Position numbers and translations under genes: made by a program
Source: Gammaproteobacteria bacterium
GTDB lineage: Bacteria > Pseudomonadota > Gammaproteobacteria > Burkholderiales > Burkholderiaceae_C
NCBI GenBank assembly: GCA_025359085.1
Contig: JANYHL010000086.1
Location: 1-41,978, forward strand
DNA: 41,978 nucleotides
Direction of reading: 5' to 3'
Notes under the pieces: generated by a model
The model's input: the letters and a program-made list of their open reading frames with translations, nothing else
Databases searched by the model: none
What the model was told of the DNA's origin: nothing
In this document: positions 4,323 to 41,426 of the stretch, one piece after another
Layout of the letters: every line of letters starts with the position of its first letter
Numbering within the stretch: the first letter of the stretch is position 1

Positions 4323-4846
4323 CGCAAGAACTATCAAAATCAGAGCTATCTACGCCCTATCTATGCGGTCTAGTGGCCGATTTGATGCTAAAGAACCAAC
4401 TAAAACTGGTGACCGCCGAGAGCTGCACCGGTGGCCTGATTGCGGCCACTTGTACCGATCTGGCGGGCTCCAGCGCCTGGTTTGAGCGCGGCTTTGTCAC
4501 CTACTCGAACGAGGCCAAAACCGAGTTGCTCGGCGTCGAAGCCGGACTGCTGCTCAGTGCCGGGGCCGTTAGTGAGGCCGTCGCGCGGGCCATGGTGCTC
4601 GGCGCCCTGGCCAACGCGCATGCGCAAGTGGCGCTGGCCGTCACCGGCCTGGCCGGCCCGACCGGGGGCAGCCCGGCGAAACCGGTCGGCACGGTCTGCT
4701 TCGGCTTTGCGGTGCCGGGCCAGCTCCTCACCGAACAGCGTCACTTTGCCGGCGACCGCGCCGGCGTGCGCGCTGCCAGCGTGCAGCATGCCTTGCGGCG
4801 GCTGGGCGAACTGCTGGATTCAACCCCGCTTGCCGTGCCCCGCTAG
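4319..4846 (+). CDS. pncC: nicotinamide-nucleotide amidase (CinA C-terminal domain family)
   Basis: A 175-residue single-domain CinA-C protein. Members hydrolyse nicotinamide mononucleotide to nicotinate mononucleotide and ammonia in pyridine nucleotide salvage. Diagnostic stretches are AESCTGG near residue 40, TYSNEAKTELLGV, and GLAGPTGGSPAKPVGTV. The start ATG overlaps the pgpA stop (ATGA). Residues about 5-24 are encoded by a copy of the dispersed element described separately, so the N-terminal helix has unusual sequence and codons (AAA, TCA, CTA) compared with the rest. The stop codon interlocks with the stop of the convergent metF gene within CTAG at 4843-4846. Confidence 0.9.
   Translation: MTQELSKSELSTPYLCGLVADLMLKNQLKLVTAESCTGGLIAATCTDLAGSSAWFERGFVTYSNEAKTELLGVEAGLLLSAGAVSEAVARAMVLGALANAHAQVALAVTGLAGPTGGSPAKPVGTVCFGFAVPGQLLTEQRHFAGDRAGVRAASVQHALRRLGELLDSTPLAVPR
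4331..4391 (+). repeat. dispersed palindromic element, copy inside pncC
   Basis: AT-richer patch that aligns with the other copies. AGCTATCTACGCCC corresponds to the left arm, and GGTCTAGTGGCCGATTTGAT to the right arm and tail found at 31771-31792. It is read in frame as residues about 5-24 of pncC. Confidence 0.6.
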
Positions 4847-5679
4847 CCCAATCTGCGGCAGATTTCCAGCGTGGCGGTGCTCTGGTTCATGCTGTAAAAG
4901 TGCAGGCCGGGCGCACCGCCGGCGCGCAGTTGCTCGCACAGGTCGGTGACCACGTCCAGGCCAAACGCCTTGATGGACGCGCTGTCATCGCCAAAACTCT
5001 GCAGACGCAGGCGGATCCAGCGCGGAATTTCGGCACCGCAGGCATCGCTGAAACGCATCAGTTGGGTTGAGCTGGCAATCGGCATGATGCCGGGCACGAT
5101 CGGCAGGTTGATGCCCAGCGCGTCCACCTCTTCGACAAAGCGGAAGTAGGCATCTGCGTTGTAGAAATACTGGGTGATGGCGGAGTTGGCCCCGGCTTTG
5201 ACTTTGGCGGCAAAGGCCTGCAGATCAGCTGCTGGCGATCTGGCCTGCGGGTGAACCTCGGGATAAGCGGCCACCTCGATGTGAAAGTCGTCACCGGTCT
5301 CGGCGCGGACAAACGCCACCAGGTCGCTGGCGTAATGAAACTCGCCACCGATGCCAAAACCACTGGGCAAATCGCCCCGCAGCGCCACCAGCCGCTGGAC
5401 GCCCATGGCTTTGAGAATGCCCAGTTGCTCACGCACCTTGGCGTGGGTGGCCCCGATGCAGGAAATGTGCGAGGCGGCCTGGACGCCCTCGGCCAGAATA
5501 TCGCGCACCGTGTTGAACGTGCCTTCTTGGGTCGAGCCGCCAGCGCCAAAAGTCACCGAGCAGAACTCGGGCTTCAGGGTATAGAGCTGCTTGCGCACCG
5601 CACACAGCTTGTCGACGCCTTCAGGCGTTTTTGGCGGGAAGAACTCAACACTGATGGGGATAGGAGCGGTCACAGTCAT
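4843..5679 (-). CDS. metF: methylenetetrahydrofolate reductase
   Basis: A 278-residue FAD enzyme that reduces 5,10-methylene-THF to 5-methyl-THF, the methyl donor for methionine synthesis. Family stretches are SVEFFPPKTPEG at the N-terminus, SVTFGAGGSTQEGT, VALRGDLPSG, and the ITQYFYNADAYFRFVE and IVPGIMPI motifs near the FAD and folate sites. The frame is open up to 5760, but the ATG at 5679 puts the SVEFFPP motif at residue 8 as expected. It lies only 10 bases after tlyA and 863 bases after ahcY on the same strand, so it is likely in one transcript downstream of the SAH riboswitch. This links recycling of homocysteine to supply of methyl groups. Confidence 0.93.
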   Translation of the reverse strand: MTVTAPIPISVEFFPPKTPEGVDKLCAVRKQLYTLKPEFCSVTFGAGGSTQEGTFNTVRDILAEGVQAASHISCIGATHAKVREQLGILKAMGVQRLVALRGDLPSGFGIGGEFHYASDLVAFVRAETGDDFHIEVAAYPEVHPQARSPAADLQAFAAKVKAGANSAITQYFYNADAYFRFVEEVDALGINLPIVPGIMPIASSTQLMRFSDACGAEIPRWIRLRLQSFGDDSASIKAFGLDVVTDLCEQLRAGGAPGLHFYSMNQSTATLEICRRLG

Positions 5680-5689
5680 GACTGACTTT

Positions 5690-6511
5690 CTAGAGTTTCG
5701 GCTTGGCGGCGGCGATAAAAAATTCACGGTTGCCATCGCCCCCGGCAATGGGCGAATCAAACCACGCGGTCACGCTCAGGCCCAATGCTGCGCATGCCTC
5801 GCGCAGGCGCTGTTCCACCAGCCGGTAGAGGGCCGCATCCTTCACGATGCCGCCTTTGCCGACCTGACCCGGTTGCAGCTCAAACTGTGGCTTGACCAGC
5901 GTCAGCAGCGTGCCCCCGCTTTTAAGCAGGGGCACCACGGCGGGCAGCACCAGGGTTTGCGAGATGAAGGACAAGTCGGCCACGATCAGGTCGAACTCAG
6001 GGGCGAACTCATGCACTTCCGCGCCCCCTTCTTCTACATCAAATTGGCCTCCAGCCCCCGTGCTTTCTTCATAAGCAGCTATTAAATCAGAAGCAACCAG
6101 GGCGCGCGCATTGACTTTTTCAATGCACAGCACGCGCGGGTCTTCGCGCAGGCTGGGGTGCAACTGGGCGCTGCCCACGTCCACCCCGACCACCGAGGCG
6201 GCACCGTGCTGCAGCAGGCAGTCGGTAAAACCGCCGGTCGACTGGCCCACATCAAGACAGGCCAGTCCGGTCACGGACAAGCCGACCTGCTGCAGCGCGG
6301 CCTCCAGCTTCAGGCCGCCACGCGACACATAACGCGCCTGGGCGTCGTTGAGCAGCTTTAGTTCAGCCTCCAGCGGAATCTCGTCACCGTTTTTGGTGAC
6401 GGTCTTCCACTGCGCGCCCCTGAGCCACTGCACGCCATCGGCAATCAGGCGCTGGGCCTGCGAGCGGGTGCTGGCAAGTTGCCGTTGCACGAGTAATTGG
6501 TCAGCACGCAT
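5690..6511 (-). CDS. tlyA: TlyA family rRNA methyltransferase / hemolysin-like protein
   Basis: A 273-residue protein with an N-terminal S4 RNA-binding domain (residues about 1-60) and an FtsJ-like SAM-dependent methyltransferase fold. The SAM site is CLDVGQSTGGFTDCLL, and a later motif is FDLIVADLSFISQ. TlyA proteins of actinobacteria 2'-O-methylate rRNA; the activity of proteobacterial members is less certain. Between the NAR motif and the FDLIVAD motif there is an extra stretch of about 25 residues. Part of it (residues about 141-159) is encoded by a copy of the dispersed element. The gene sits 35 bases after ahcY and 10 before metF, so a SAM-consuming enzyme is embedded in the methyl-cycle operon. 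Confidence 0.87.
   Translation of the reverse strand: MRADQLLVQRQLASTRSQAQRLIADGVQWLRGAQWKTVTKNGDEIPLEAELKLLNDAQARYVSRGGLKLEAALQQVGLSVTGLACLDVGQSTGGFTDCLLQHGAASVVGVDVGSAQLHPSLREDPRVLCIEKVNARALVASDLIAAYEESTGAGGQFDVEEGGAEVHEFAPEFDLIVADLSFISQTLVLPAVVPLLKSGGTLLTLVKPQFELQPGQVGKGGIVKDAALYRLVEQRLREACAALGLSVTAWFDSPIAGGDGNREFFIAAAKPKL
6035..6090 (-). repeat. dispersed palindromic element, in-frame copy inside tlyA
   Basis: On the minus strand it reads GATTTAATAGCTGCTTATG, then a short middle, then GGGGGCTGGAGGCCAATTTGAT. This matches the left arm and right arm of the element. It contributes residues about 141-159 of TlyA without breaking the frame. Confidence 0.75.
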
Positions 6512-6546
6512 GATGTGTCGCAGTCATTCAGTCAGAAGGTGGTTTT

Positions 6547-7998
6547 TCAATAGCGGTAGCTGTCGGCCTTGTACGGGCCGGCTTTGCTGACACCGATGTA
6601 GGCGGCTTGCTCGTCCGTCAGTTCAGACAGCATCGCGCCGACTTTGGCCAGGTGCAAACGCGCCACCTTTTCATCGAGGTGCTTGGGCAACACATAGACC
6701 TTGCCGACCTTGTACTGCTTGGGCTTGGTGAACAACTCGATCTGCGCAATGGTCTGATTGGCAAAGCTGGAGCTCATCACAAAGCTGGGGTGGCCGGTGC
6801 CGCAACCCAGGTTGACCAACCGGCCCTTGGCCAGCAGGATGATGCGCTTGGACGGCGTTTTGCCCCTGGCCGGGAAGATCACATGATCGACTTGCGGCTT
6901 GATTTCTTCCCACTTGCATTTGTCGAGCGAGGCGACATCGATCTCGTTGTCAAAGTGGCCGATGTTGCAGACTATTGATTGGTCTTTCATGGCCGCCATG
7001 TGCTTGTAGGTGATGACGTTTTTGTTGCCGGTGCAGGTGACGAAAATATCGCACTTGTCAGCGGCATATTCCATGGTCACGACCTTGTAGCCTTCCATCG
7101 CCGCTTGCAGCGCGTTGATCGGGTCGATTTCTGTCACCCACACCTGGGCGCTCAAGGCACGCAAGGCCTGGGCCGAGCCCTTGCCGACATCGCCATAGCC
7201 AATCACACAGGCCACCTTGCCGGCAATCATGACGTCGGTGGCGCGCTTGATGGCATCGACCAGCGACTCGCGGCACCCATACAGGTTGTCAAACTTGCTC
7301 TTGGTGACCGAGTCATTGACATTGATCGCGCGCAGCATCAACTCGCCCTTGGCCGACATGTCGTTGAGGCGGTGCACGCCGGTGGTGGTTTCTTCGGTCA
7401 CACCCATGATGTTTTTCAGGCGGCGGCTGTACCAGGTCGGGTCCAGCTTGAGTTTGGCCTTGATGGCGGCAAACAGACAGATCTCTTCTTCGCTGCCGGG
7501 CTTGGCCAGCAGGCTGCTGTCCTTTTCGGCGCGCGTGCCGAGGTGCATCAACAGCGTGGCATCGCCGCCGTCGTCCAGAATCATGTTCGGGCCTTCAGCG
7601 GCCGTGCCCTTTTTGCCGCCAAATTCAAAAATGCGGTGCGTGTAGTCCCAGTAGTCGCTCAAGCTCTCGCCCTTGTAGGCGAACACCGGCGTGCCTGCTT
7701 CCACCAACGCGGCAGCGGCATGGTCCTGAGTCGAGAAAATATTGCATGAGGCCCAACGTACTTCAGCACCCAGCGCCTGCAGGGTTTCGACCAGCACGCC
7801 GGTCTGGATCGTCATGTGCAGCGAGCCGGTGATGCGCGCGCCCTTCAAGGGCTGCGATTTTGAAAATTCTTCACGAATCGCCATCAGGCCGGGCATTTCG
7901 GTCTGGGCAATGTTCAGTTCTTTACGGCCCCAGGCGGCGAGGCTCAGGTCGGCGATCACATGGTCGGGACGGCTGACAGGTTTCGATACGGTGCGCAT
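6547..7998 (-). CDS. ahcY: adenosylhomocysteinase (SAH hydrolase)
   Basis: A 483-residue NAD-dependent S-adenosylhomocysteine hydrolase, which splits SAH into adenosine and homocysteine and so removes the product inhibitor of methyltransferases. Clear motifs are [32 protein letters not shown], the NAD-binding [18 protein letters not shown], and [14 protein letters not shown]. The C-terminus ends KADSYRY, close to the family KPDHYRY tail. The length fits the proteobacterial form with an internal insertion (residues about 150-190). GGAG nine bases before the ATG at 7998 is the ribosome site. The leader holds an SAH riboswitch, so expression should rise with SAH. It is first in the ahcY-tlyA-metF unit. 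Confidence 0.96.
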
Positions 7999-8079
7999 GG
8001 CTCACTCCAAAAGTTGATTTGAAAAGCATTGAACTGCGCGGGGAATTCTTCGAAAAGACTCACCGCACAGACCAGTGGG

Positions 8080-8168
8080 TGAGCGCGGTTGATGCGGTGA
8101 TTCAGCGATGGGGCCAAGGCACGCGGTCCGAGCCTCGTTCAACATGTGTGAACTGCAACGCTCCTCGG
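8080..8168 (-). promoter_or_regulatory. SAH riboswitch upstream of ahcY
   Basis: Read on the minus strand, the aptamer starts CCGAGGAGCGTTGCA. P1 pairs 8168-8164 (CCGAG) with 8132-8128 (CTCGG). P2 pairs 8153-8149 (GTTCA) with 8141-8137 (TGAAC) around a 7-base loop. The conserved core GAGCG at 8163-8159 can form the pseudoknot with CGCTC at 8085-8081, which lies in AACCGCGCTCAC. These features and their order match the known SAH riboswitch class, found upstream of ahcY in Betaproteobacteria as an on-switch. A -10-like TAGAAT at 8183-8178 would start transcription just before P1; its -35 is weak. An 8-bp inverted repeat (8100-8093 with 8067-8060) encloses the pseudoknot strand and may act in switching. 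Confidence 0.85.
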
Positions 8169-8281
8169 AAGGCGATAATTCTACCTTTTCCAGACATCCA
8201 GTATCTTCAGGCTCGCGCAAGCGCCCCCTCCCTGGTGGCCCTATCCGCCAGCGCCAGCCCCGTCGCATCCAGCCACAACAC

Positions 8282-9913: not shown

Positions 9914-9932
9914 TCGGGTACACCTTTTTAGT

Positions 9933-9960: not shown

Positions 9961-9966
9961 GCCACC

Positions 9967-10818
9967 ATGTTGCCGCTCACCGACTGGCCGCTGGAAGACC
10001 GCCGTCGTCTGATCGGCGTCTTCACTGACATCGATGACACGCTGACAACAGACGGGGCCATCACCCCCGATGCGCTGCAGGCACTGAGCGGTTTGAAAGC
10101 GGCCGGACTGCGTGTGATCCCCATCACCGGGCGGCCGATCGGCTGGTGTGAGCCGTTTGCCAATGGCGACCCGCTGCGCGGCATCGCACCCTGGCCGCTG
10201 GATGCCCTCGTGGCAGAAAACGGTGCGGTCGCCTTGGCCCCTGATAATTTATGCCAAATCAGCCTGCAGCCCTCATGGAATAAGCGCCTGCAGCTATCAA
10301 AAATATATCAACAGTCAGACGCCACGCGCGTCAACAACGTCATCCACCTGCAGCGAATTGCCGCCCAGGTGTTGCACGAGGTGCCCGGCGCCAGGCTGTC
10401 GCAGGACTCGCCCGGCCGCGAAACCGACATCGCCATCGACCACAGCGAATTTGCCCACCTGGCACCCGACCAGATTGCCCGGGTGGTGGCCCTCATGCAG
10501 GCCGCTGGCATGAACGCGTCTGTCAGCAGCATCCACATCAACGGCTGGTTTGGCAACCACAACAAACTGACAGGCGCGCGCTGGATCGTGCGCGAATTGT
10601 TCGGGCGCGATCTGGATGCGGAGCGGGATCAATGGGTGTATGTGGGTGATTCCACCAATGACCAACTGATGTTTCAGCATTTCAGGCACAGTGTCGGCGT
10701 CGCCAACATCCTGCGCTTCACGGCCGAGCTGACGCACCAGCCGCGCTACATCACCCGCCGTGAACGCGGCGCCGGTTTTGCCGAAGTGGCGCGCGCCATC
10801 CTCGCCGCGAAAGGTTAA
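9967..10818 (+). CDS. HAD superfamily (type IIB) hydrolase, sugar-phosphatase-like
   Basis: A 283-residue haloacid dehalogenase-type phosphatase. Motif I is FTDIDDTL near residue 18 (nucleophile and acid Asp), motif II is the ITGRP region, and motif IV is GDSTNDQLMF near residue 224. The large cap between motifs II and III fits the type IIB group, which includes mannosyl-3-phosphoglycerate and trehalose-6-phosphate phosphatases. The substrate cannot be named from sequence. Residues about 94-115 are encoded by a copy of the dispersed element, giving an odd stretch rich in Ser, Gln and Lys after the AENGAVAL motif. It is followed by a strong hairpin at 10827-10849. Confidence 0.8.
   Translation: MLPLTDWPLEDRRRLIGVFTDIDDTLTTDGAITPDALQALSGLKAAGLRVIPITGRPIGWCEPFANGDPLRGIAPWPLDALVAENGAVALAPDNLCQISLQPSWNKRLQLSKIYQQSDATRVNNVIHLQRIAAQVLHEVPGARLSQDSPGRETDIAIDHSEFAHLAPDQIARVVALMQAAGMNASVSSIHINGWFGNHNKLTGARWIVRELFGRDLDAERDQWVYVGDSTNDQLMFQHFRHSVGVANILRFTAELTHQPRYITRRERGAGFAEVARAILAAKG
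10247..10310 (-). repeat. dispersed palindromic element, in-frame copy inside the HAD gene
   Basis: On the minus strand it reads TTTTTGATAGCTGCAGGCGC, then TTATTCCATGA, then GGGCTGCAGGCTGATTTG. The left arm, right arm and AT-rich flanks are all present. It lies antisense to the gene but keeps its frame, coding residues about 94-115. Confidence 0.8.
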
Positions 10819-10826
10819 TATAAAAG

Positions 10827-11468: not shown

Positions 11469-11473
11469 TGTTT

Positions 11474-12266: not shown

Positions 12267-14156
12267 ATGGCATTAATTACCTTTCTCAACGCGCAACTGG
12301 CTTTCGGCCATGTTCCCTTACTCGACCACACCGACTTTGCCCTGGAGACGGGCGAGCGCGTCGGCCTGATCGGGCGCAACGGCACCGGCAAAACATCTTT
12401 TTTGAAAATCCTGGCCGGGTTTGAGAAAGCCGATGACGGCGCCTTGCAATGGCAACAAAACCTGCGCCTGGCGTATGTCGCGCAGGAACCGCAGCTCGAC
12501 CAGGAAGCTACTGTTTTTGTAGCTGCCAGCGCAGGGATCGCGGGGGTTATCGCCCTGATTGATCAATACTGTGAAGGGGTTGGCGACCTCGACCAGTTGC
12601 AAAGCAAGATTGAAGCACAAGGCGGCTGGAACTGGGAGCAACGCGTCACCGAAACCCTGCACCGCCTGCATCTGAATGAAAACGACATCATCGGCACGCT
12701 TTCCGGCGGCACCAAAAAGCGGGTCGCGCTGGCGCAGGCTTTGGTGGCGCAGCCCGACGTTTTGCTGCTGGACGAACCCACCAACCACCTCGACCTGGAC
12801 TCGATCGAATGGCTGGAAGACCTGCTGATTGGCTTCAAGGGCAGCGTCGTCGCCATCACCCATGACCGGAGTTTTCTGGACCGGGTGGCGACGCGCATCG
12901 TGGAGCTGGACCGGGGCATCTTGCGCTCCTATGACGGCAATTTCGCCCAGTACCAGATTCTCAAAGAGGATCAACTGGCGCAGGAAGCGGTCATCAGCGC
13001 CAAGGCGGACCGACTGCTGGTGCAAGAAGAAATCTGGATTCGCAAGGGCGTCGAGGCGCGCCGCACTCGCAGCCAGAGCCGCATTGTCCGACTGGAAAAC
13101 CTGCGGGCCAGCCGCAAGGCGCACCGAGAAGCCGTGGGCAAAGTCAAAATGGACGTGGCATCGGGTGGCCTGAGCGGCAAGCTGGTGGCCGAATTGACGC
13201 AGACCAGCCTGTCCTTCGGCGACAAAGTCATCATCAAGGACTTTTCCGCCACCCTTTTGCGCGGCGACAAAATCGGCTTGCTCGGCCCCAATGGGGCGGG
13301 CAAGACGACCTTGCTCAAGCTCATTCTGGGCGAATTGGTACCGGACAGCGGCAAGATTCGTCAGGGCACCAACTTGCAAGTGGCCTACTTTGACCAGATG
13401 CGCAATGCGCTCGACCTGGACGCCACGCTGGTGGACTTCATCAGCCCGGGCAGCGAATGGATCGAAATTGGCAACCAGCGCAAACACGTCAAGAGCTACC
13501 TGGGCGACTTCCTGTTTTCACCGGCCCGCGCCAACTCGCCGGTGCGCTCGCTCTCGGGCGGCGAGCGCAACCGGCTGCTGCTGGCGCGCTTGTTTGCCCG
13601 ACCGGCCAATGTGCTGGTGCTGGACGAGCCGACCAACGACCTGGACATCGAAACCCTGGAATTGCTGGAAGAATTGCTGCAAAACTACGCGGGCACGGTG
13701 TTTCTGGTCAGCCATGACCGCACCTTCCTGGACAACGTGGTGACCAGCACCATTGCCTTTGAGGGCGACGGGCTGTGGCGCGAATACGAAGGGGGCGTGC
13801 AAGACTGGCTGCTGCAATCCAGGCGCAGCAAAGAGATGCAGACTGCTATTAATTCAATAGCCACTACCGCACAACAGACGGGGGCCAGAGGCCAAAAATA
13901 CACAAAGTCCAGTGACAACAAGAAAATCGTGACGGCGCAAAAGCTCAGCAACAAGGCGCAACGCGAAGTCGACACTTTACAGGCAAGAATAGACGTGCTG
14001 GAGCAGGAACAGGCCACCGTGCGCGCCACCCTGACCGACGCCCATCTTTATGCCAAAGACCCGGCGCGCGCGACCGAACTGTACGCGCGCGACGCAGCGA
14101 TTGAAGAAGAATTGCTGACCTCGCTGGCACGCTGGGAAGAGCTCTCGGCCCTCTGA
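12267..14156 (+). CDS. uup: ABC-F family ATPase, Uup type
   Basis: A 629-residue soluble protein with two ABC domains in one chain and no membrane segments. The first has GRNGTGKTSFLK, LSGGTKKRVALAQAL and LLLDEPTNHLDLD. The second has GPNGAGKTTLLK, LSGGERNRLLLARLF and VLDEPTNDLDIETLE. The linker between them is the charged P-site-type arm. The C-terminal 100 residues are a predicted coiled coil (QREVDTLQARIDVLEQEQ), which marks the Uup group. ABC-F proteins act on ribosomes, and Uup also affects DNA integrity and transposon excision. Residues about 526-545, just before the coiled coil, are coded by a dispersed element copy. The 130-base region upstream shows only a lone -10-like GATAAT. Confidence 0.9.
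   Translation: MALITFLNAQLAFGHVPLLDHTDFALETGERVGLIGRNGTGKTSFLKILAGFEKADDGALQWQQNLRLAYVAQEPQLDQEATVFVAASAGIAGVIALIDQYCEGVGDLDQLQSKIEAQGGWNWEQRVTETLHRLHLNENDIIGTLSGGTKKRVALAQALVAQPDVLLLDEPTNHLDLDSIEWLEDLLIGFKGSVVAITHDRSFLDRVATRIVELDRGILRSYDGNFAQYQILKEDQLAQEAVISAKADRLLVQEEIWIRKGVEARRTRSQSRIVRLENLRASRKAHREAVGKVKMDVASGGLSGKLVAELTQTSLSFGDKVIIKDFSATLLRGDKIGLLGPNGAGKTTLLKLILGELVPDSGKIRQGTNLQVAYFDQMRNALDLDATLVDFISPGSEWIEIGNQRKHVKSYLGDFLFSPARANSPVRSLSGGERNRLLLARLFARPANVLVLDEPTNDLDIETLELLEELLQNYAGTVFLVSHDRTFLDNVVTSTIAFEGDGLWREYEGGVQDWLLQSRRSKEMQTAINSIATTAQQTGARGQKYTKSSDNKKIVTAQKLSNKAQREVDTLQARIDVLEQEQATVRATLTDAHLYAKDPARATELYARDAAIEEELLTSLARWEELSAL
13843..13901 (+). repeat. dispersed palindromic element, in-frame copy inside the ABC-F gene
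   Basis: Reads CTGCTATTAATTCAATAGCC, ACTACCGCACAACAGAC, then GGGGGCCAGAGGCCAAAAATA. This fits the left flank, middle and right arm of the element. It codes residues about 526-545, in the linker to the C-terminal coiled coil. Confidence 0.7.
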
Positions 14157-20465: not shown

Positions 20466-20478
20466 GAAAACTCCTGTA

Positions 20479-20537
20479 AATTTATAAAAAATCAGGCTCT
20501 AGCCCTTACAGAATAAGCGCTGGTAGCTATGAAATAA
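20479..20537 (-). repeat. dispersed palindromic element between the ureohydrolase and gabD
   Basis: On the minus strand it reads TTATTTCATAGCTACCAGCG, CTTATTCTGTAAGGG, then CTAGAGCCTGATTTTTTATA. The arms AGCTACCAGCGCTTA and TAAGGGCTAGAGCCT are imperfect inverted repeats, so the transcript can fold into a hairpin. It directly abuts the stop codon of the ureohydrolase. Confidence 0.8.
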
Positions 20538-21494
20538 CTAGCGTCTGAGGACCCCGGGCAGCACGCACAGCATCTCGAACAACAGGTTGGCCCCGAGCAG
20601 GGCGGTGTTGCCGCTCAAATCATACGGCGGCGAAACCTCGACCAAATCGCAGCCGACGAGATTGAGCCCGTGGCAGCCCCGAATGATCTCCAGCGCCTGC
20701 GGCACGCTCAGACCCCCGATTTCGGGCGTGCCGGTGCCGCCCGCATAGGCCGGGTCGATGCCGTCAATGTCGAAGCTCAAATAGCAGGGCGTGTTGCCGA
20801 TGCGCTCGCGCACCCGGGCCATCAACGGCGCCAGCGACTGGTACCAGATTTCATGCGCCGGCACCAGGGTAAAACCTTGCGCCCGCGGCCAGTCGAAGTC
20901 GTCAGCCGCATAGCCGCTGCCGCGCAGCCCGATCTGAAACACCTTGTGGCAGTCGAGCAGATTTTCTTCGACCGCGCGGCGAAACGGCGTGCCATGCGCC
21001 ACCGGCTCGCCAAACATCTCGTCGTTGACGTCGGCATGGGCGTCCACATGCACCAGGGCGACCGGGCCATGTTGGGCTGCCATGGCGCGCAGGATCGGCA
21101 GCGCAATGGTGTGATCGCCACCGAGCGTCAGCGGCGTGCAATTGGCGCGCAGCACCTGCTCATAAAAGTCGCTGATGATCGTCAGCGATTTCGTCAGCGA
21201 GTAGGTGTTGATCGGCACATCGCCCAGGTCGGCCACTTGCAGCGTGTCAAACGGCGCGGCGCCGGTGGCCATGTTGTAGGGGCGAATCAGCGCCGACTCG
21301 GCGCGGATCTGACGCGGGCCAAAGCGCGCGCCGGGCCGGTGCGAGGTGCCGATGTCGAGCGGGACGCCGATGAACGCCACATCCAGGCCTTCGGCCGAGC
21401 TGACCACCGGCAGCCGCAACATGCTGGCGAGGCCGCCAAAACGCGGCATCGCGTTGCCCGACAAAGGTTGATTCTTGGGCGTTGATGGGTTCAT
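20538..21494 (-). CDS. ureohydrolase, agmatinase/guanidinobutyrase type
   Basis: A 318-residue manganese enzyme of the arginase/agmatinase family, which cleaves a guanidino group to urea and an amine. Metal-binding motifs are intact: GGDHTIALP, HVDAHADVND and SFDIDGIDPAYAGGTGTPE. Segments such as MPRFGGLASMLRLP, RPYNMATGAAPFD and GCDLVEVSPPYD resemble, from memory, the Pseudomonas guanidinobutyrase GbuA more than arginase. The neighbours gabT and gabD act on GABA, exactly the product of 4-guanidinobutyrate hydrolysis, which favours that substrate. Agmatine, giving putrescine, would need further enzymes not seen here. The start ATG at 21494 has a weak ribosome site. Confidence 0.85.
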   Translation of the reverse strand: MNPSTPKNQPLSGNAMPRFGGLASMLRLPVVSSAEGLDVAFIGVPLDIGTSHRPGARFGPRQIRAESALIRPYNMATGAAPFDTLQVADLGDVPINTYSLTKSLTIISDFYEQVLRANCTPLTLGGDHTIALPILRAMAAQHGPVALVHVDAHADVNDEMFGEPVAHGTPFRRAVEENLLDCHKVFQIGLRGSGYAADDFDWPRAQGFTLVPAHEIWYQSLAPLMARVRERIGNTPCYLSFDIDGIDPAYAGGTGTPEIGGLSVPQALEIIRGCHGLNLVGCDLVEVSPPYDLSGNTALLGANLLFEMLCVLPGVLRR

Positions 21495-21515
21495 GGGGAA
21501 GCTCTGGTTTTCAGA

Positions 21516-21581
21516 AAAATTTATAACAATTAAGCATCTAGCCCCCGTGAATACTGGCTATATAGCTATATTTTATATAGC
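21516..21581 (-). repeat. dispersed palindromic element plus AT-rich hairpin between potC-like gene and ureohydrolase
   Basis: On the plus strand AAAATTTATAACAA at 21516-21529 is identical to the copy at 32481-32494, and ATCTAGCCCCCGTGAATA follows. Next to it GCTATATA (21557-21564) and TATATAGC (21574-21581) form an 8-bp stem with a 9-base loop. The piece occupies most of the 109-base gap. Confidence 0.7.
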
Positions 21582-21603
21582 TAAAGTATTCAATCCCACA
21601 GAC

Positions 21604-31732: not shown

Positions 31733-31800
31733 TTTGCTATTTATTAAGTAGCTACTCACGCATGCTAAACAAGGGCTAGCGGTCAATTTGATTTATAAAA
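31733..31800 (+). repeat. dispersed palindromic element between alaS and the TlpA-like gene
   Basis: The fullest copy reads TTTGCTATTTATTAAG, TAGCTACTCACGCATG, CTAAACAAGGGCTAGCGGTC, then AATTTGATTTATAAAA. TAGCTACTCACGCATG (31749-31764) is identical to 40855-40840 on the minus strand inside srkA. Confidence 0.85.
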
Positions 31801-32342
31801 TTGAACCTGGACGGATGGCCCTGTGCTTCGCCCTCGCCACCCTGCTGGCAAGCGCGGGCGTGCAAGCGCAGGGCTACCAAGTCGTGCCCTGGCCCGCGCG
31901 CCAGCCGATGCCGCCCCTGACCGCCACCGACTTGCAGGGCCAGGTCTGGCGTTTGGCCGACTTGCGCGGCAAAGCGGTGCTGATCAACTTCTGGGCCAGC
32001 TGGTGCGAGCCCTGCCGCGCTGAGATGCCTTCCTTGCAAGCGCTGGCGCAGCAACAGGGCGCCGGCCCCCTGCAGGTGCTGGCGGTGAACTTCAAGGAAT
32101 CGGCCAGCACGGTGCAGCGCTTTGTGCAGCAAACCAAGCTGCCCTTGCCGGTGCTGCTGGACCCGCAGGGTGCGATGGCGCGCCAATGGGGTGTCAGCGT
32201 GTTCCCGTCCACCGTGCTGATTGGCGCCGACGGCCGGGTGCAGGGCGTGCTGCGCGGGGAGCTGGACTGGACCAGTGCCCAGGCGGCCCAGTTGCTCCGG
32301 CCCTTGCTGGCGCCGGCGCTCAAGGTGCCGGCCCAGCGATAA
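31788..32342 (+). CDS. TlpA-like thiol-disulfide oxidoreductase
   Basis: A 184-residue periplasmic thioredoxin-fold protein. An N-terminal signal peptide (hydrophobic core ALCFALATLLASAG, cleavage after VQA) is followed by the TlpA/ResA fold with active site FWASWCEPCRAEMPSLQ, a CxxC pair. The cis-Pro motif is VFPSTVLIG. Such proteins reduce specific disulfides, often for cytochrome c or oxidase assembly. Two starts are possible: TTG at 31788, which supplies basic residues for the signal peptide but lies inside the dispersed element, or ATG at 31815, which gives a signal peptide with no basic residue. I keep the longer form with doubt. Confidence 0.82.
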   Translation: MIYKIEPGRMALCFALATLLASAGVQAQGYQVVPWPARQPMPPLTATDLQGQVWRLADLRGKAVLINFWASWCEPCRAEMPSLQALAQQQGAGPLQVLAVNFKESASTVQRFVQQTKLPLPVLLDPQGAMARQWGVSVFPSTVLIGADGRVQGVLRGELDWTSAQAAQLLRPLLAPALKVPAQR

Positions 32343-32451: not shown

Positions 32452-33570
32452 ATGACCACCGCTCACGCTTCTGGCCGTCGAAAATTTATAACAAATTCGG
32501 CGCTAGCCCTTGCTGCATCTGCGCTACCCACTATCAATTTTGCACAATCCAGCGAGCGCAAGTTTGCGCCACGACCGGGCCGGTGGCGCACTTTTGACGT
32601 CACCACCCGGGTCGACCTGGCCCCGCCGCAGGGCGCCACCCGCCTCTGGCTGCCGATCCCGTGCGTCAACACCGACTGGCAGCAGTCGCTGCAGAGCGGC
32701 TTTAGCAGCAACGGCGAGACCGTCCTGAGCAGTGACGGCCAGCAGGGCGTGCGCCTGCTTTATGTGGCTTTCGCTGCCGACGTGGCCCAGCCCTTTGTCG
32801 AGCTCACCAGCCGCATCCAGACGCAAGATCGTGCCACCGCCTGGGCCCAAAAACAAAACGTGCGGGAAGACGCGGCCACGCTGCACGCCTACACCGTCGG
32901 CACCCGCCTGCTGCCGGTCGATGGCATCGTGCGCCAGACCGCGCAGGCCGCCACCCGGGGCGCCCGCAGCGACGTTGAGAAAGCGCAAAAACTGTATGAC
33001 TGGATCGTGGCCAACACCTTTCGCGAGCCGAAAATGCGCGGCTGTGGCGAAGGCGACATCAAGACCATGTTGGAAACCGGCAACCTGGGCGGCAAGTGCG
33101 CCGACCTGAACGCCTTGTTTGTCGGCCTTTGCCGCGCCGTCGGCCTGCCCGCGCGCGATGTTTATGGCTTGCGCGTGGCCCCCAGCGCTTTTGGCTACCG
33201 GGAGCTCGGTGGCAACCCGGCCCAGCTGGCGAGCGCACAGCATTGCCGCGCCGAGGTCTTCCTCCAGGGCTACGGCTGGGTGGCGATGGACCCGGCCGAC
33301 GTGACCAAGGTGATGCGCATGGAAACGCCGGAGTGGATCAAATCGCCGCAACACGCTTTGGTGGCGCCGGTCAAGCAGGCGCTGTTTGGCGGCTGGGAAG
33401 GCAACTGGATAGCCTTCAACACGGCGCATGACGTCAGCCTGCCGCATGCCCAGGGCGCCCAAGTCGGCTTCTTCATGTACCCGATGGCCGAAAACGACGC
33501 CGGGCAGCTGGACTCCTACGCGCCCGACCGCTTCAAATACCAGATCAGCGCCCAGGAAATCAAGGCCTGA
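32452..33570 (+). CDS. transglutaminase-like protein with Tat signal
   Basis: A 372-residue exported protein. Residues 9-10 are Arg-Arg in GRRKFITNSALALAASALP, a Tat-type signal with cleavage near NFA. The body has a transglutaminase/protease-like core: Cys in GGKCADLNALFVGLCRAVG, His in AQHCRAEVFLQGYGW and Asp in AMDPADV, the Cys-His-Asp triad. The substrate is unknown; family members act as peptidases or cross-linkers in the envelope. GGAG nine bases before the ATG at 32452 is the ribosome site. The Tat hydrophobic region is coded by the dispersed element, so this signal peptide may have arisen or been remodelled by its insertion. The next gene, pstS, is separated by the Pho box. Confidence 0.82.
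   Translation: MTTAHASGRRKFITNSALALAASALPTINFAQSSERKFAPRPGRWRTFDVTTRVDLAPPQGATRLWLPIPCVNTDWQQSLQSGFSSNGETVLSSDGQQGVRLLYVAFAADVAQPFVELTSRIQTQDRATAWAQKQNVREDAATLHAYTVGTRLLPVDGIVRQTAQAATRGARSDVEKAQKLYDWIVANTFREPKMRGCGEGDIKTMLETGNLGGKCADLNALFVGLCRAVGLPARDVYGLRVAPSAFGYRELGGNPAQLASAQHCRAEVFLQGYGWVAMDPADVTKVMRMETPEWIKSPQHALVAPVKQALFGGWEGNWIAFNTAHDVSLPHAQGAQVGFFMYPMAENDAGQLDSYAPDRFKYQISAQEIKA
32481..32541 (-). repeat. dispersed palindromic element coding the Tat signal core
   Basis: The plus strand reads AAAATTTATAACAAATTCGG, CGCTAGCCCTTGCTGCATCT, GCGCTACCCACTATCAATTT. On the minus strand this gives TAGTGGGTAGCGC, then AAGGGCTAGCGCCGAATTTG, the usual arms. It codes residues about 11-30 of the transglutaminase-like protein in frame. 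Confidence 0.8.
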
Positions 33571-36667: not shown

Positions 36668-36705
36668 GCCCATCCAGCTAAAAATTCCAGAACAGATCCA
36701 ATACC

Positions 36706-37485
36706 ATGACTGCTGCCATCGCCACCCCTGAGAGGTCCAAGATTTCCGTCAAGAACCTGGATTTTTTTTACGGCAAGTTCCACGCCCTCAAAAATATCAG
36801 CCTGGATATCCCGGAACACAAAGTAACGGCCTTTATTGGCCCGTCGGGCTGTGGCAAATCCACCCTGTTGCGTGTTTTCAATCGCATGTTCGAGTTGTAT
36901 CCGGAGCAACGCGCGGAAGGTGAAATTTTGCTGGATGGCGAAAATCTGCTGACCAGCAAAAAGGATGTGGCGCTGCTGCGGGCCAAGGTCGGCATGGTGT
37001 TCCAGAAGCCAACGCCATTTCCGATGTCGATTTTCGACAACATTGCCTTCGGCGTAAAACTGTTTGAGTCGCTCAACACCACCGACCTGGAGGAGCGCGT
37101 TGAGTGGGCCTTGCGCAAGGCAGCCTTGTGGAGCGAAGTTAAAGACAAGTTGACCCAGAGCGGCTCCAGCCTCTCGGGCGGGCAGCAGCAGCGTCTGTGC
37201 ATTGCACGCGGCATCGCCATCAAGCCCGAGGTGCTGCTGCTCGACGAGCCGTGCTCGGCACTCGACCCGATTTCGACCGCAAAAATCGAGGAGCTGATCA
37301 CGGAGCTCAAAAGTGACTACACGGTGGTCATCGTGACCCACAACATGCAGCAAGCGGCACGTTGCAGTGATTACACCGCCTATATGTATCTGGGTGACTT
37401 GATGGAGTTTGGTGCCACCGAGCAAATATTTTTCAAGCCCACGCGCAAGGAAACCGAAGATTACATTACCGGCAGGTTTGGTTGA
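36706..37485 (+). CDS. pstB: phosphate ABC transporter ATP-binding protein
   Basis: A 259-residue ATPase that powers phosphate import. Walker A is GPSGCGKST, the signature is [16 protein letters not shown], Walker B is [13 protein letters not shown], and the H-loop is [19 protein letters not shown]. The Q-loop [15 protein letters not shown] is diagnostic of PstB. It lies 38 bases after pstA and 76 before phoU. Length is normal for the family. Confidence 0.96.
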
Positions 37486-37507
37486 ACCTGAGATAGTGTG
37501 CGACCAA

Positions 37508-37549
37508 CCGCAGCGACGCAACTGGGCCAACTCTGTCCCCAACTGATTA
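37508..37549 (+). repeat. dispersed leader repeat, copy 2 (CTCTGTCCCCAACTGATTA)
   Basis: CCGCAG at 37508 and CTCTGTCCCCAACTGATTA at 37531-37549 match the copy at 15081-15123. It fills most of the pstB-phoU gap and stops just before the AAGGAAG ribosome site of phoU. Confidence 0.7.
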
Positions 37550-37561
37550 GAAGGAAGTCAC

Positions 37562-38263
37562 ATGCCAGATAAACATCTCTCCACCCAGTTTGACAGCGAA
37601 CTCAGCGCGGTCTCGACCCGCGTCATGGAAATGGGCGGCCTGGTCGAATCGCAGATTCAGCAGGCGATTTATGCCTTGTCGCAGTTCAGCGTTGAAGTGG
37701 CCAACGAAGTCACGTCCACCGAGGCCCGCGTCAACGCGCTGGAAGTGGATATTGACCGTGAGCTCGCCAGCATCATCGCCCGGCGTCAGCCGACCGCGCG
37801 TGATCTGCGCTTGTTGATGGCCATCTCCAAAACCACCGCCAATCTGGAACGCGTCGGCGACGAGGCCGAAAAAATTGCGCGCATGGTTCGCTCCATCATC
37901 CAAAGTGGCGGCCCCCGTTCGCTCCCGGCCAATGAACTGCGGGTAGTGGCCGATATGGCCTCGGGCTTGCTGCGCAAGGCGCTCGATGCGTTTGCCCGCC
38001 TCGACACGACTGCGGCGGTGGCGATCCTGAAAGAAGACGATCTGATCGACGAGGAGTTCAACGGCTTTGTGCGCAAGCTCATCACCTACATGATGGAAGA
38101 CCCGCGCATGATTTCACCCAGCCTGGACTTGCTGTTTCTGGCCAAGGCCCTGGAGCGCATTGGCGACCACGCCAAAAACATTGCCGAATTCATCATCTAT
38201 GTGGTCAAGGGTGCGGATGTCCGCCACACCTCGATGGAACAGATTGAGTCCGTCGTGCGATGA
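37562..38263 (+). CDS. phoU: phosphate signalling complex protein PhoU
   Basis: A 233-residue helical protein with two PhoU domains (residues about 15-105 and 120-215). It links the Pst transporter to PhoR and keeps the regulon off when phosphate is plentiful. Typical text is NALEVDIDRELASIIARRQP, LERVGDEAEKIARMV and LERIGDHAKNIAEFIIYVV; the Asp/Glu in these repeats bind metal clusters in characterised family members. AAGGAAG four bases before the ATG at 37562 is a good ribosome site. The stop overlaps phoB as ATGA. Confidence 0.95.
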   Translation: MPDKHLSTQFDSELSAVSTRVMEMGGLVESQIQQAIYALSQFSVEVANEVTSTEARVNALEVDIDRELASIIARRQPTARDLRLLMAISKTTANLERVGDEAEKIARMVRSIIQSGGPRSLPANELRVVADMASGLLRKALDAFARLDTTAAVAILKEDDLIDEEFNGFVRKLITYMMEDPRMISPSLDLLFLAKALERIGDHAKNIAEFIIYVVKGADVRHTSMEQIESVVR

Positions 38264-38982
38264 GACAGCCGCCGGGCGTTTTGATTGTGGAAGATGAGCC
38301 CGCCATTGCCGAGCTGATCGCTGTCAACCTGCGCCATAACGGCTTCCGCCCGACCTGGGCCATGGACAGCGCCAGCGCCCAGCGCGAACTCGATGCGGTG
38401 TTGCCGGACGTGATTTTGCTCGACTGGATGCTGCCCGGCGAGAGCGGCTTGCTGCTGGCCAAACGCTGGCGCGCCCACCCGCGCACCAAGGCCGTGCCCA
38501 TCATCATGCTGACCGCCCGTGGCGATGAAGCGGACCGCGTCGCGGGTCTGGATGCCGGCGCGGACGACTACATTGCCAAACCGTTTTCCACCAAGGAGCT
38601 GCTGGCGCGCGTGCGTGCCGTGCTGCGCCGACGCGCCCCCGAGCAGGTCGGCGCCGTCGTCCGCGTGGGCGACCTGTTGCTGGATGGTGCCACTTACCGT
38701 GTGTCGTTTGCTGATCAAAAACTCAAGCTCGGGCCGACCAGATTCAAGTTATTGCAGTATCTGATGAGCCATGCCGAGCGTGTCCACAGCCGTTCGCAGT
38801 TGCTCGACAAGGTCTGGGGCGACCACGTTTTCATTGAGGAGCGCACGGTCGATGTGCACGTCAAGCGTTTGCGCGAGGCGCTCGGCCCCCAGGCCGGCCT
38901 GATGATAGAAACCGTACGCGGTGCGGGCTACCGGCTGACGGCGCCAGCGACGCTGCCCACGCCGGTGCAGGCCAGCGCGTGA
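38260..38982 (+). CDS. phoB: phosphate regulon response regulator PhoB
   Basis: A 240-residue OmpR/PhoB-type regulator. The receiver domain (residues 1-120) has acidic pair EDEP, phospho-acceptor Asp55 in LLDWMLPGESG, Thr in MLTARGDEAD and Lys in DDYIAKPFSTKELLARV. The C-terminal winged helix (residues about 140-230) has RSQLLDKVWGDHVFIEERTV. It should bind the Pho box upstream of pstS. It starts at the ATGA overlap with phoU, which couples its translation to that gene. A C-terminal tail of about 10 residues (PTPVQASA) is non-conserved. Confidence 0.95.
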   Translation: MRQPPGVLIVEDEPAIAELIAVNLRHNGFRPTWAMDSASAQRELDAVLPDVILLDWMLPGESGLLLAKRWRAHPRTKAVPIIMLTARGDEADRVAGLDAGADDYIAKPFSTKELLARVRAVLRRRAPEQVGAVVRVGDLLLDGATYRVSFADQKLKLGPTRFKLLQYLMSHAERVHSRSQLLDKVWGDHVFIEERTVDVHVKRLREALGPQAGLMIETVRGAGYRLTAPATLPTPVQASA

Positions 38983-39027
38983 TTCAACGCAAGTTGAGCG
39001 TTGCTTGGCTGTAGCCGCCGTCGCATC

Positions 39028-40374
39028 GTGTTTTTTCGCTTCTTTTCTTTCATCGCGTGCCAGCTGGCCGGTGGCTTGGCCGGCTGGTATGCGACCTCGT
39101 CCACCCACACCGCAACGAGCGAGCTGGTCGGCATCCTGGCGGGTGTCGTGCTGGGCGGAGTGGCCTGGTTTCTGCTTGATATCTCGCGCGGCGCGCGCTT
39201 GTTGCACTGGTTGCGTGTCGGTGACGCCTCGGATGTCGCCCTGCGCACCGGTCTATGGGGCGAGGTGTCGGATCGGACCCGGCGTCTGATTCGGGCCCGG
39301 GAGCAAATGACGCTGGAGAGCCAGCATCGGCTGCAGGACTTTTTGTCCGCGTTGCAGGCCTCGCCCAATGGAGTGTTGCTGCTTGATGCACAGGGTCAGA
39401 TCGAGTGGCTGAACCAGACCGCGGCCTTGCATTTTGGTCTGGATGCGCAGCGCGACTTGCTGCAGCACTTGGGCAATCTGGTGCGCGACCCCGGTTTCGC
39501 GCGCTACTTTGCCCGCCGCGATTACCGCCAGGGACTCATCATGCCCGGGCGCGAGAACACAGCGACACGACCGGTCAAGCTGTCGGTCCATCTGTACCCC
39601 TATGGCGAAGGGCGGCTGCTGCTGCTCTCCAGCGACATCACCGCCGTCGAGCAGGCCGAAGCCATGCGGCGTGATTTTGTCGCCAATGTCTCACACGAGA
39701 TTCGCACACCGTTGACCGTGCTGGCCGGCTTTGTCGAAACGCTGCAGACCTTGCCCCTGAACGACGCGGAGCGCGAACGCTATCTGGCCTTGATGGCGCA
39801 GCAGGCCGGGCGCATGCAGACACTGGTCCATGACCTGCTGGTGCTGTCGCGCCTGGAAGGCAGTCCACCGCCCAGCGACGCCGAGGGCATCGCCGTGCCG
39901 ACCCTGATGCACCAACTCGAGCAGGATGGTCGCGCCCTGTCAGCAGTGCTGAGCCCGACCTGCGAGCCTTTGCACCGGCTGGTGTTCGAGACTTCGCTCA
40001 GCGGCGAGATCATGGGCGCGCCCAGCGAACTGCTCAGCGCGCTGGGTAACCTGGTCAGCAACGCCATTCGCTACACGCCCAGCGGCGGGCAAATTGAGGT
40101 GCGAGCGCGTCTGTTGGCGGACGACCGGGCGGAGTTTTCCGTGTCGGATACCGGTCCCGGTATTGCCCCGGAACACATTCCGCGCCTGACCGAGCGTTTT
40201 TACCGGGTCGACCTGAGCCGCTCAAGAGATACCGGGGGCACCGGGCTCGGTTTGGCGATCGTCAAACATGTGGCGCAGCGCCACGGTGCTGAGTTGACGA
40301 TTCAAAGTACGCCGGGCAAAGGCTCGGTCTTCAGGATTATCTTTCCGTCCAGCCGAGTCAGACTGTCGCCTTAG
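39028..40374 (+). CDS. phoR: phosphate regulon sensor kinase PhoR
   Basis: A membrane histidine kinase of 448 residues if it starts at GTG 39028; TTG at 39001 is the alternative, adding nine residues. Neither has a good ribosome site, and a stop at 38995 bars anything longer. Two membrane segments (residues about 1-50) lead to a PAS domain (residues about 95-205). The kinase part has the H-box VANVSHEIRTPLTVLAG with phospho-accepting His223, the N-box LVSNAIRYTPSGG, the G1 box DTGPGIAPEHIPRL and G2 GGTGLGLAIVKHVAQRHG. It phosphorylates PhoB in low phosphate. The stop interlocks with that of srkA within TTAG at 40371-40374. Confidence 0.92.
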   Translation: MFFRFFSFIACQLAGGLAGWYATSSTHTATSELVGILAGVVLGGVAWFLLDISRGARLLHWLRVGDASDVALRTGLWGEVSDRTRRLIRAREQMTLESQHRLQDFLSALQASPNGVLLLDAQGQIEWLNQTAALHFGLDAQRDLLQHLGNLVRDPGFARYFARRDYRQGLIMPGRENTATRPVKLSVHLYPYGEGRLLLLSSDITAVEQAEAMRRDFVANVSHEIRTPLTVLAGFVETLQTLPLNDAERERYLALMAQQAGRMQTLVHDLLVLSRLEGSPPPSDAEGIAVPTLMHQLEQDGRALSAVLSPTCEPLHRLVFETSLSGEIMGAPSELLSALGNLVSNAIRYTPSGGQIEVRARLLADDRAEFSVSDTGPGIAPEHIPRLTERFYRVDLSRSRDTGGTGLGLAIVKHVAQRHGAELTIQSTPGKGSVFRIIFPSSRVRLSP

Positions 40375-41426
40375 ACCAGCAGCGGGTCTTCCTGCATCGC
40401 TTCCAGTTGCTCCTGCAGCATCTGCACCTGGCCCTGCCAGTAGTCACTTGAGCCAAACCATGGAAAATTAATGGGGAAAGTCGGGTCGCTCCAGCGCCGC
40501 GCCAGCCAGGCGCTGTAGTGGATCAGACGCAAGGTGCGCAGCGGCTCGATCAGCGCCAGTTCGCGCCGGTCAAATTCACGGAACTGCTCGTAACCGTCCA
40601 CCAGGCAGCCCAGTTGACGCGTGCGCTGCGCGCGGTCGCCACTGAGCAGCATCCACAGGTCTTGCACGGCCGGGCCGCTGCGGGCGTCATCCAGATCAAC
40701 AAAGTGCGGGCCGGGACCAGCGCTTGCGGCGGCGTCCAGCGGTGTCCAAAGAATGTTGCCGGGATGACAGTCGCCGTGCAGGCGCAATTGCCTGATCGGT
40801 TCGAAATAGGGGTCATTTTGACCTGTAGCCCCCGTCAAACATGCGTGAGTAGCTATGATATCAAGAGCATCTTGCGACGCCTTGGCCCACGCCGACTGCA
40901 CATCGAGCGGTATCTGGTCGTGACCCAGCAGCCAAGCACGCGAGTCGACGCCAAAGCTTTGCAGATCCAGCACGGGACGGCCGGCAAAGGGCTTGGCAGC
41001 ACCCACGGTGTGAATGCGGGCCAGAAAGCGGCCAATCCACTCCAGCACCTCGGGGTCGTCGAGCTCGGGGGGTCGCCCGCCCCGGCTCGGACTGACGCTG
41101 AAAGCAAAGCCAGCAAAGTGATTGAGCGTGCTGCCCTTGAGCAGCAGCGGGCCCACCACCGGAATTTCGGCCGTCATCAGTTCGGCAGAAAAGGCGTGCT
41201 CTTCCAGAATTTGCGCCTCGCTCCATCGCTTGGGCCGGTAAAACTTGGCGACCACCACCGCGCCGTCTTCCAGGTGCAATTGATAAACCCGGTTCTCGTA
41301 CGAGCTCAGGGCCAGCAAGCGACCGTCGCCATACAGGCCGACGCTGGCCAGCGCGTCCATCACCACATCGGGCGTGAGCGATTCATAAGCATGAGGGGCT
41401 GAAGATGACGGCAAAGGTGCAAACAT
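40371..41426 (-). CDS. srkA: stress response serine/threonine protein kinase SrkA (YihE/RdoA family)
   Basis: A 351-residue kinase of the aminoglycoside-phosphotransferase-like fold. Motifs are ENRVYQLHLEDGAVVVAKFY with the ATP-site Lys, the catalytic HGDCHPGNILW, and the metal-binding FVDLDDARSGP. SrkA protects against stress-induced death, acting against the MazF pathway in E. coli. Residues about 188-205 are coded by an in-frame copy of the dispersed element, giving the odd stretch IIATHACLTGATGQNDPYFE just before the catalytic loop. The gene follows the rRNA operon end on the same strand. An inverted repeat lies 70-90 bases upstream of its start. Confidence 0.9.
   Translation of the reverse strand: MFAPLPSSSAPHAYESLTPDVVMDALASVGLYGDGRLLALSSYENRVYQLHLEDGAVVVAKFYRPKRWSEAQILEEHAFSAELMTAEIPVVGPLLLKGSTLNHFAGFAFSVSPSRGGRPPELDDPEVLEWIGRFLARIHTVGAAKPFAGRPVLDLQSFGVDSRAWLLGHDQIPLDVQSAWAKASQDALDIIATHACLTGATGQNDPYFEPIRQLRLHGDCHPGNILWTPLDAAASAGPGPHFVDLDDARSGPAVQDLWMLLSGDRAQRTRQLGCLVDGYEQFREFDRRELALIEPLRTLRLIHYSAWLARRWSDPTFPINFPWFGSSDYWQGQVQMLQEQLEAMQEDPLLV
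40812..40865 (-). repeat. dispersed palindromic element, in-frame copy inside srkA
   Basis: On the minus strand it reads ATATCATAGCTACTCACGCA, TGTTTGACGGGGGCTACAGG, TCAAAATGAC. It shares the exact 16-mer TAGCTACTCACGCATG with the alaS-TlpA spacer copy. It keeps the srkA frame. Confidence 0.85.

Follow-up and report, generated by a model that had tools for sequence, protein, structure and literature searches.

A dispersed ~70-bp element of Comamonadaceae with two conserved cores: candidate recognition sites for a putative DNA-binding protein

Contig JANYHL010000086.1 of assembly GCA_025359085.1 (41,978 nucleotides, all of which is referred to here as the window) is one of the 149 contigs, designated C109, of a 3.16-Mb genome whose host genus we infer to be Rhodoferax. 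It is dotted with copies of a short repeated element, which is the subject of this report. The original prediction, made from the sequence alone, claimed nine copies of a palindromic element; all nine were found again and are mutually alignable (nhmmer E values between 4e-16 and 3e-12, the profile itself having come from those nine copies), and the two exact words quoted as shared between copies are both present. A tenth, weaker copy at 12504-12573 scored 21.5 bits (E 5e-6) with the nine-copy profile and 30.7 bits with an iterated one. The ten copies are distributed in the window as follows:

4327-4396, plus strand: copy at the 5' end of a cinA-like gene whose start codon is uncertain; an orthologous copy is present in genome G063 (32.5 bits).
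6028-6097, minus strand: copy inside a tlyA/ftsJ-type rRNA methyltransferase gene (5690-6511, minus strand), reading ASDLIAAYEESTGAGGQFD, an ancient in-frame insertion.
10243-10312, minus strand: copy inside a HAD-type hydrolase gene (9967-10818, plus strand), on the opposite strand to the gene.
12504-12573, plus strand: the tenth copy, inside an ABC-F (Uup-like) gene, with no insertion relative to a solved Uup chain.
13842-13911, plus strand: copy in the linker of the same ABC-F gene (12267-14156, plus strand).
20476-20545, minus strand: copy filling the spacer of two co-directional genes.
21515-21584, minus strand: copy in the spacer upstream of an arginase-family gene.
31733-31802, plus strand: copy in a spacer, the genome's top-scoring place with model R1.
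32480-32549, minus strand: copy at the 5' end of a transglutaminase-like gene whose start is uncertain.
40802-40871, minus strand: copy inside an srkA/yihE-type kinase gene (40371-41426, minus strand), reading ALDIIATHACLTGATGQND.

The HAD-type gene at 9967-10818 is missing at the corresponding place in genomes G063 and G054, where another element copy lies in a junction of ~130 bp.

The family extends far beyond these ten copies. A covariance model of the nine copies gave at least 150 places genome-wide (the best 150 of 989 candidates were scored), and the iterated profile recovered 73 copies in 415.6 kb comprising the window and 20 further stretches, a non-random draw of long contigs known from the hit list; the original prediction had staked the family on such searches, and they turned up many further copies. 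Hexamer-shuffled own DNA (387 kb) reached a maximum of 7.3 bits, against a copy threshold of at least 20 bits. With the window excluded and with the contig included that carries the gene for a REP (repetitive extragenic palindromic)-associated tyrosine transposase (RAYT), 66 copies of at least 20 bits lie in 387 kb, a density of 17 per 100 kb that extrapolates to ~540 copies for the whole genome. The suggestion that similar sequences occur in Comamonadaceae was also borne out, as records of Rhodoferax, Polaromonas, Curvibacter and Giesbergeria match in at least 113 stretches. In the literature, among titles and the opening parts of abstracts, no listed paper names this element, and none of six host names looked for occurs in PMC3733652.

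Alignment of 99 own copies, a set that includes 30 loci fetched as best-scoring places, defines a unit of ~68-70 bp (positions about -3 to 66). Its 55-bp core is ungapped and invariant in length in 73/73 copies, with the consensus GCTATTAATTTAATAGCTGCTTACGCATATTCGACGGGGGCTAGAGGCCAATTTG, and is followed by an AT-rich tail like TTATAAATTT; the G+C content of the copies is 41%, versus 60% in the sampled genome. Information is concentrated in two short words, TAGC at positions 14-17 and GGGC at 38-41: AG at 15-16 is present in 99/99 copies and the remaining letters of the two words in 95-99%, while positions such as 22, 28, 32 and 33 are almost unconstrained. Each letter of TAG is kept in at least 95% of the 99 copies, and the base that precedes it is A (76%) or G (23%).

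The two cores form a short dyad, TAGC-N22-GCTA, and to this extent the description of the element as palindromic holds, if weakly; the proposal that it folds like a REP or a miniature inverted-repeat transposable element (MITE) found no support. Mutual information across the 99 copies falls nearly all between adjacent columns; among columns that lie far apart, 6 and 48 form the strongest pair, which is non-complementary. Pairing of positions 23-26 with 38-41 equals the shuffled expectation in five genomes, RNAalifold predicted 5 pairs with zero compensatory changes, and five native copies folded no better than their shuffles (z -1.2 to +0.2). Long terminal inverted repeats were not seen in the aligned copies, and a search of the window against Rfam returned four matches, none of them at an element copy. 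The consensus of the distant species G010 is more palindromic. An S-adenosylhomocysteine (SAH) riboswitch match (49.6 bits) lies at 8074-8172 on the minus strand of the window, upstream of a minus-strand gene at 6547-7998 (483 aa).

The cores are conserved far beyond their surroundings. Changes on terminal branches were counted in four related genomes. Of 30 merged loci, 17 were used, which a frame test divided into 10 noncoding and 7 coding ones; the 13 loci known in two genomes only were excluded. The copy had to score at least 25 bits in another genome, and the branches counted were not those used to find copies. At noncoding loci, core changes numbered 2/344 where 34.4 were expected at base-specific flank rates (core versus flanks, Fisher 9e-13), and the corresponding counts were 58/627 at other high-information positions, 73/514 at middle and 46/290 at low-information positions, and 311/3065 in the flanks. 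Coding loci gave 3/263 core changes and 162/2490 flank changes. Across all 17 loci, not one change fell at positions 14-17 (TAGC, 0/252) or 38-40 (GGG, 0/189), that is, 0/441 together. Purifying selection would fit this core pattern, which conversion from other copies could imitate.

Species of the genus differ widely in how many copies they carry. Loose first-look candidates numbered 143 to 1,683 in 60 genus genomes, with 30 genomes above and 30 below 500. Direct counts at the 20-bit threshold gave 157 copies in 1.1 Mb of genomes G000, G063, G054 and G040. Seven other species above 500 had 5 copies in 112 kb, and nine species below 500 had none in 181 kb. The stretches counted were not chosen copy by copy but lie around the RAYT or ABC-F gene or were taken by synteny. 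A tree of 34 species was built from three proteins, omitting the columns that the element occupies in tlyA and srkA. On this tree the high/low label (cut at 140 candidates/Mb) requires 5 changes, of which starred branches force at least 3, and both deep clades contain high species. The copy inside tlyA tracks this division. TTA and ATA codons, which are rare in own genes (1.6% of Leu and 3.9% of Ile codons), occur at the tlyA site in 8 and 11 of 13 high-density species, respectively, and in 0/17 low-density species. The latter encode the same or similar residues with other codons; in them the motif is eroded while a similar peptide stays. Motif score at tlyA correlates with genome-wide candidate density at rho 0.91 (n=30), and motif score at srkA at rho 0.74 (n=29, a gap having excluded one of the 30). 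G+C content explains less (rho -0.29, P 0.049, n=46) and was rejected as the cause of loss.

In a distant species the motif itself differs. An iterated profile run on 400 kb of G010, sampled as 20 evenly spaced stretches, settled on the right core ACAAGCGCTAG versus ACGGGGGCTAG. Five genomes were then compared with both profiles at a minimum of 18 bits, dropping copies without AG at 15-16 and adding to the G010 set 60 kb known from earlier hits or RAYT. At position 39, G occupies 96-99% of the copies of G000 (76 copies), G063 (33), G054 (23) and G040 (36), and the 64 G010 copies have C there in 62% of cases and G in 36%; position 36 is G in 72-83% of the close-genome copies versus A in 80% of those of G010. 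The orthologous tlyA site has the reading ACAAGCGCT in G010 and in G031, its sister, and ACGGGGGCT in G000, G063 and G054; in the same deep clade, G039 reads ACGGGGGCT and G028 ACGGGCGCT. These readings suggest that the dialect may have changed in place, a change that is clear at one site.

Several copies lie in frame within genes, as the original prediction held, and these inform the question of origin. The tlyA segment is alignable in 30/30 genus orthologs. An order-wide tlyA search gave matches in 25/120 genomes, and the segment is absent from 22/22 other-family orthologs and from one same-family ortholog (G108), as well as from the solved TlyA chains shown. The tlyA copy is thus an ancient in-frame insertion, which predates the sampled genus. 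In G152 (locus L352, same family), the TlyA ortholog carries a different, much longer acidic insert at the element-bearing loop. The srkA segment is likewise present in 30/30 orthologs; at this place the solved chain of YihE has 12 residues fewer. The translated peptide, A-x-x-x-I-A ... T-G-A-x-G-Q, is alike in the unrelated TlyA and SrkA and in the ABC-F linker copy at 13842. The segment at 12504, on the other hand, aligns to the solved Uup chain with no insertion. Insertion as the origin, which the prediction proposed to check against distant orthologs, is shown for tlyA at least, where the stretch is absent from those orthologs, and not for the copy at 12504; the origin may therefore differ from copy to copy.

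The comparable positions are old, with few gains or losses. Among 170 copies from G000 and three relatives, 89 have both flanks alignable in another genome, giving 215 comparisons at flank identities of 69-96% (median 84%); the other 81 sites have no alignable flanks and fall outside the comparison. The element is kept, at 10 bits or more, in 203 of these 215 element-genome pairs, and 166 of the 167 comparisons with 68-72 nt at the site score. About six loci account for the 12 empty comparisons, and one of these loci was probably mismatched. Frequent mobility is thus unsupported at the comparable sites. Alignment of six loci of odd length showed the element at two of them in G063 and G054 and not in G040 (at one of the two, also not in G000). 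One gain is clean: in G063, ~102 bp of DNA including the element, flanked by the 5-bp direct repeat CATGA, separate two genes whose counterparts in G054 and G040 overlap. Beside a shared copy, G054 (L182:13159-13347) and G063 (L186:1313-1501) also carry an unrelated 111-bp insert that ends in the inverted repeats AACTTACGCAAAA; G000 and G040 lack this insert, which is likely a MITE of another family.

Placement in the genome departs from what the window suggested. By a strict test, which required one frame to be coding to the left and right of the element and to stay open across it, 13/75 copies lie inside genes, 5/10 in the window versus 8/65 elsewhere (Fisher P 0.011), so that the claim that copies lie mostly inside genes describes a peculiarity of the window. 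A looser gene caller placed 27/76 copies in genes and the remainder in 31 tandem, 12 convergent and 6 divergent spacers, where sampled spacers of at least 60 bp number 132, 25 and 48, respectively. As 87.2% of the sample is coding, the element copies are depleted in genes, and the notion of a preference for them has no support. Many spacers are about one element long, and 24/49 intergenic copies overlap a gene end. Orientation carries no bias: in tandem spacers 17 copies oppose the direction of the genes and 14 follow it, and by GC skew the copies divide 38 to 34. Orientation by replication strand, for which the G010 copies divide 28 to 23, was set aside. The copies are also spread apart. Intervals below 1 kb make up 4% of 67, versus 17% under random placement (P 0.001) and 14% under a context-aware null (P 0.010), although overall variation in spacing under the latter gave P 0.073. 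The shortest of the 67 intervals is 551 bp, and clusters or pairs of the kinds known as bacterial interspersed mosaic elements (BIMEs) or REPINs were not seen.

Short dispersed bacterial repeats are usually seen as selfish debris or hairpins. The many-copy population described here looks like one of old inserts whose key letters the host now protects, most likely in a docking-site role for a putative protein. We put about even weight for and against the more specific proposal that an old inserted population (~540 copies by extrapolation) is kept as recognition sites for a putative DNA-binding protein. A fuller version is tentative, and somewhat less likely than not to hold: a two-core, ~70-bp Comamonadaceae recognition code, seeded by transposition, kept for a putative trans-acting protein by selection at hundreds of loci, in-gene ones included despite the cost in rare codons, and bearing dialects, having been lost in parallel in several lineages and retargeted in others in the manner of uptake-sequence dialects. 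In the more specific proposal, a putative protein would bind the two cores (TAGC at 14-17 and GGG at 38-40, ~24 bp apart) on double-stranded DNA; loss of this partner would let copies erode, and its retargeting would shift the consensus. The lack of a strand preference together with the lack of covariation speaks for recognition in DNA rather than RNA. The job of the element might be REP-like, with docking sites close to gene ends helping to manage the chromosome or its topology. The DNA-level constraint, the split between many- and few-copy species and the dialect difference all go beyond the original prediction.

Several points weigh against this interpretation. The partner protein is putative, and neither of the candidates considered, RAYT and the competence protein ComEC, explains the split. 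The high and low classes derive from the loose first-look counts and show no clean gap (420 and 523 are adjacent values), and direct counts cover 20 of the 60 species, among which the high-class G034 and G057 gave no copy in 16 and 27 kb. G034, despite its many first-look candidates, has also lost the tlyA motif, while G024 and G066, with few candidates, retain the srkA motif. The constraint is that of 17 loci, 10 of them noncoding, in four related genomes, and biased gene conversion between copies could hold the cores too. Finally, the 67-letter consensus does fold somewhat better than shuffles (z -1.8; its complement, z -2.7).

A first alternative, unlikely in our estimate, is that of a REP-class non-autonomous element moved by the genome's single IS200-like (RAYT) transposase, with conservation reflecting transposase recognition and no host role. 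The genome has one PF01797 match, and 52/60 genus genomes of both classes have matches to this RAYT, mostly one each. An element copy lies within 25 bp downstream of RAYT, inverted, in 11/17 many-copy species (the weakest at 8.5 bits) and in 0/17 few-copy species examined. REP systems have the RAYT gene between two inverted copies; here a second, upstream copy occurs in G000, G054 and G063 and points the same way as its downstream counterpart. REPs bear a GTAG head (PMC2817692), to which the (A/G)TAG word is similar, and the excess of convergent over divergent spacers (12 versus 6, with 25 and 48 sampled) is in keeping with this alternative. Yet RAYT is also present in few-copy species, no column of a RAYT alignment (15 high versus 15 low species) separates the classes, the copies are single, with intervals below 1 kb rarer than expected, and unselected copies would not keep their core letters at orthologous sites. 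The repeat that is constant beside RAYT is, moreover, another motif: a pair like TGTCCCCAATTAT ... ATTGGAATCTGACCCCAATTA follows the gene at 34/34 loci printed, judged by eye and with variants (L059:5122-5295, L199-L228), and a pattern for it hit no other place in the 415 kb of own DNA. RAYT as the partner, an idea prompted by the flanking copies, is weakened on three grounds, namely its presence in copy-poor species, the lack of a separating residue and the other repeat constant beside it.

Less probable still is a DNA uptake sequence (DUS), in which a competence preference and transformation drive would maintain the motif and give rise to dialects. The dialect-like shift of consensus between clades, the erosion in some species, the rarity of short intervals under the context-aware null and the in-frame copies in tolerant protein segments are all as expected of such a sequence. 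A BLAST search with the consensus found no match in phage or plasmid collections, a weak test that is also compatible with uptake and by which mobile carriers were set aside. Known uptake motifs are far shorter and denser than this element, and the inverted pairs described for DUS were not seen at a shortest interval of 551 bp. An uptake motif would be gained by point mutation with no insertion; here at least one copy (tlyA) was born by insertion, and the copy at 12504 shows none. ComEC is matched in 56/60 genomes of both classes, the four in which none matched being G031, G051 and G054, which have many copies, and G061, and was rejected as the discriminator of the classes. As both RAYT and ComEC occur in both classes, neither explains the many-/few-copy split.

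Selfish inserts like the Rickettsia palindromic elements (RPEs), by now neutral relics, are very improbable. Such inserts would account for the similar peptide in TlyA, SrkA and the ABC-F linker and for the tlyA insertion common to all genus orthologs aligned, but neutral relics are disfavored because 2 core changes were found where 34 were expected, and the rare codons at the tlyA site are kept in copy-rich species only. An RNA-level element (a terminator, mRNA stabilizer or small RNA) is scarcely credible and was rejected together with hairpin function: the location near gene ends, above all convergent ones, and a consensus that folds to some degree are countered by the lack of orientation preference, by the mutual information, RNAalifold and pair counts, by native copies that fold no better than shuffles, and by the lack of an Rfam family at the copies.

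Orthologous copies of the element are traceable across the genus, and evolution itself shows which letters count, as two nearly unchanging cores stand next to free positions. Copy-rich and copy-poor species form a natural experiment, in which a gene that tracks the element over independent losses should be the partner. Its discovery would show how a mobile repeat became host equipment, and might bring to light a chromosome-organizing or DNA-uptake system in environmental Betaproteobacteria.

In function the element is likened here to a REP or an uptake sequence, and membership of either class is shown by no feature tested. With REP/RAYT systems, whose REPs are GTAG/CGTC-tagged, it shares many short dispersed copies, the gene-end location, an (A/G)TAG word that resembles a GTAG or GTGG head and a usually single RAYT with an element copy alongside in many species. 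It differs in its length of 68-70 bp, in having neither a covariation-supported hairpin nor close pairs, in the 1/6 to 1/3 of its copies that lie in genes, and in the presence of RAYT in few-copy species and of another repeat constant beside it; the 20-40 bp palindrome kept by complementary changes, a feature of REPs, is not found in it. The DUS of Neisseriaceae, as described in part of PMC3630211, are similar as a genome-wide motif with clade dialects and intragenic copies in tolerant segments; the element is much longer, sparser and of insertion origin at least once, and an uptake role for it would be by analogy. Like RPEs (as described in part of PMC10969869), it has in-frame insertion in unrelated genes with a similar peptide, insofar as the tlyA insertion and the peptide shared with srkA and the ABC-F linker reveal it, but it lies mostly outside genes, is half the length (68-70 versus ~150 bp), belongs to Comamonadaceae and appears constrained at the DNA level afterwards. 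The BRE repeats of Bordetella and other Betaproteobacteria, reported from Rhodoferax and Polaromonas as well (PMC3110155, in part), are also dispersed and have some copies in genes; by that description they are ~90 bp, 69% GC and often tandem, which sets apart the present element with its 41% GC and single copies.

Two spaced words, unnamed motif pairs, are reported in a section of PMC5217627: GCTTAT(N)5AAGCG in Acidovorax ebreus (114 copies), for which no explanation is given, and ATAGCT(N)22CAAAAG in Polaromonas naphthalenivorans CJ2 (125 copies). That section reports only spaced pentamers, and insertion, constraint and dialects are absent from it; the CJ2 word had no match in four Polaromonas loci. 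The likeness lies in the related hosts, the copy number, the intergenic bias and the frequent convergent spacers, and, by eye, in the resemblance of the centre of G010-type copies to the A. ebreus word as printed there.

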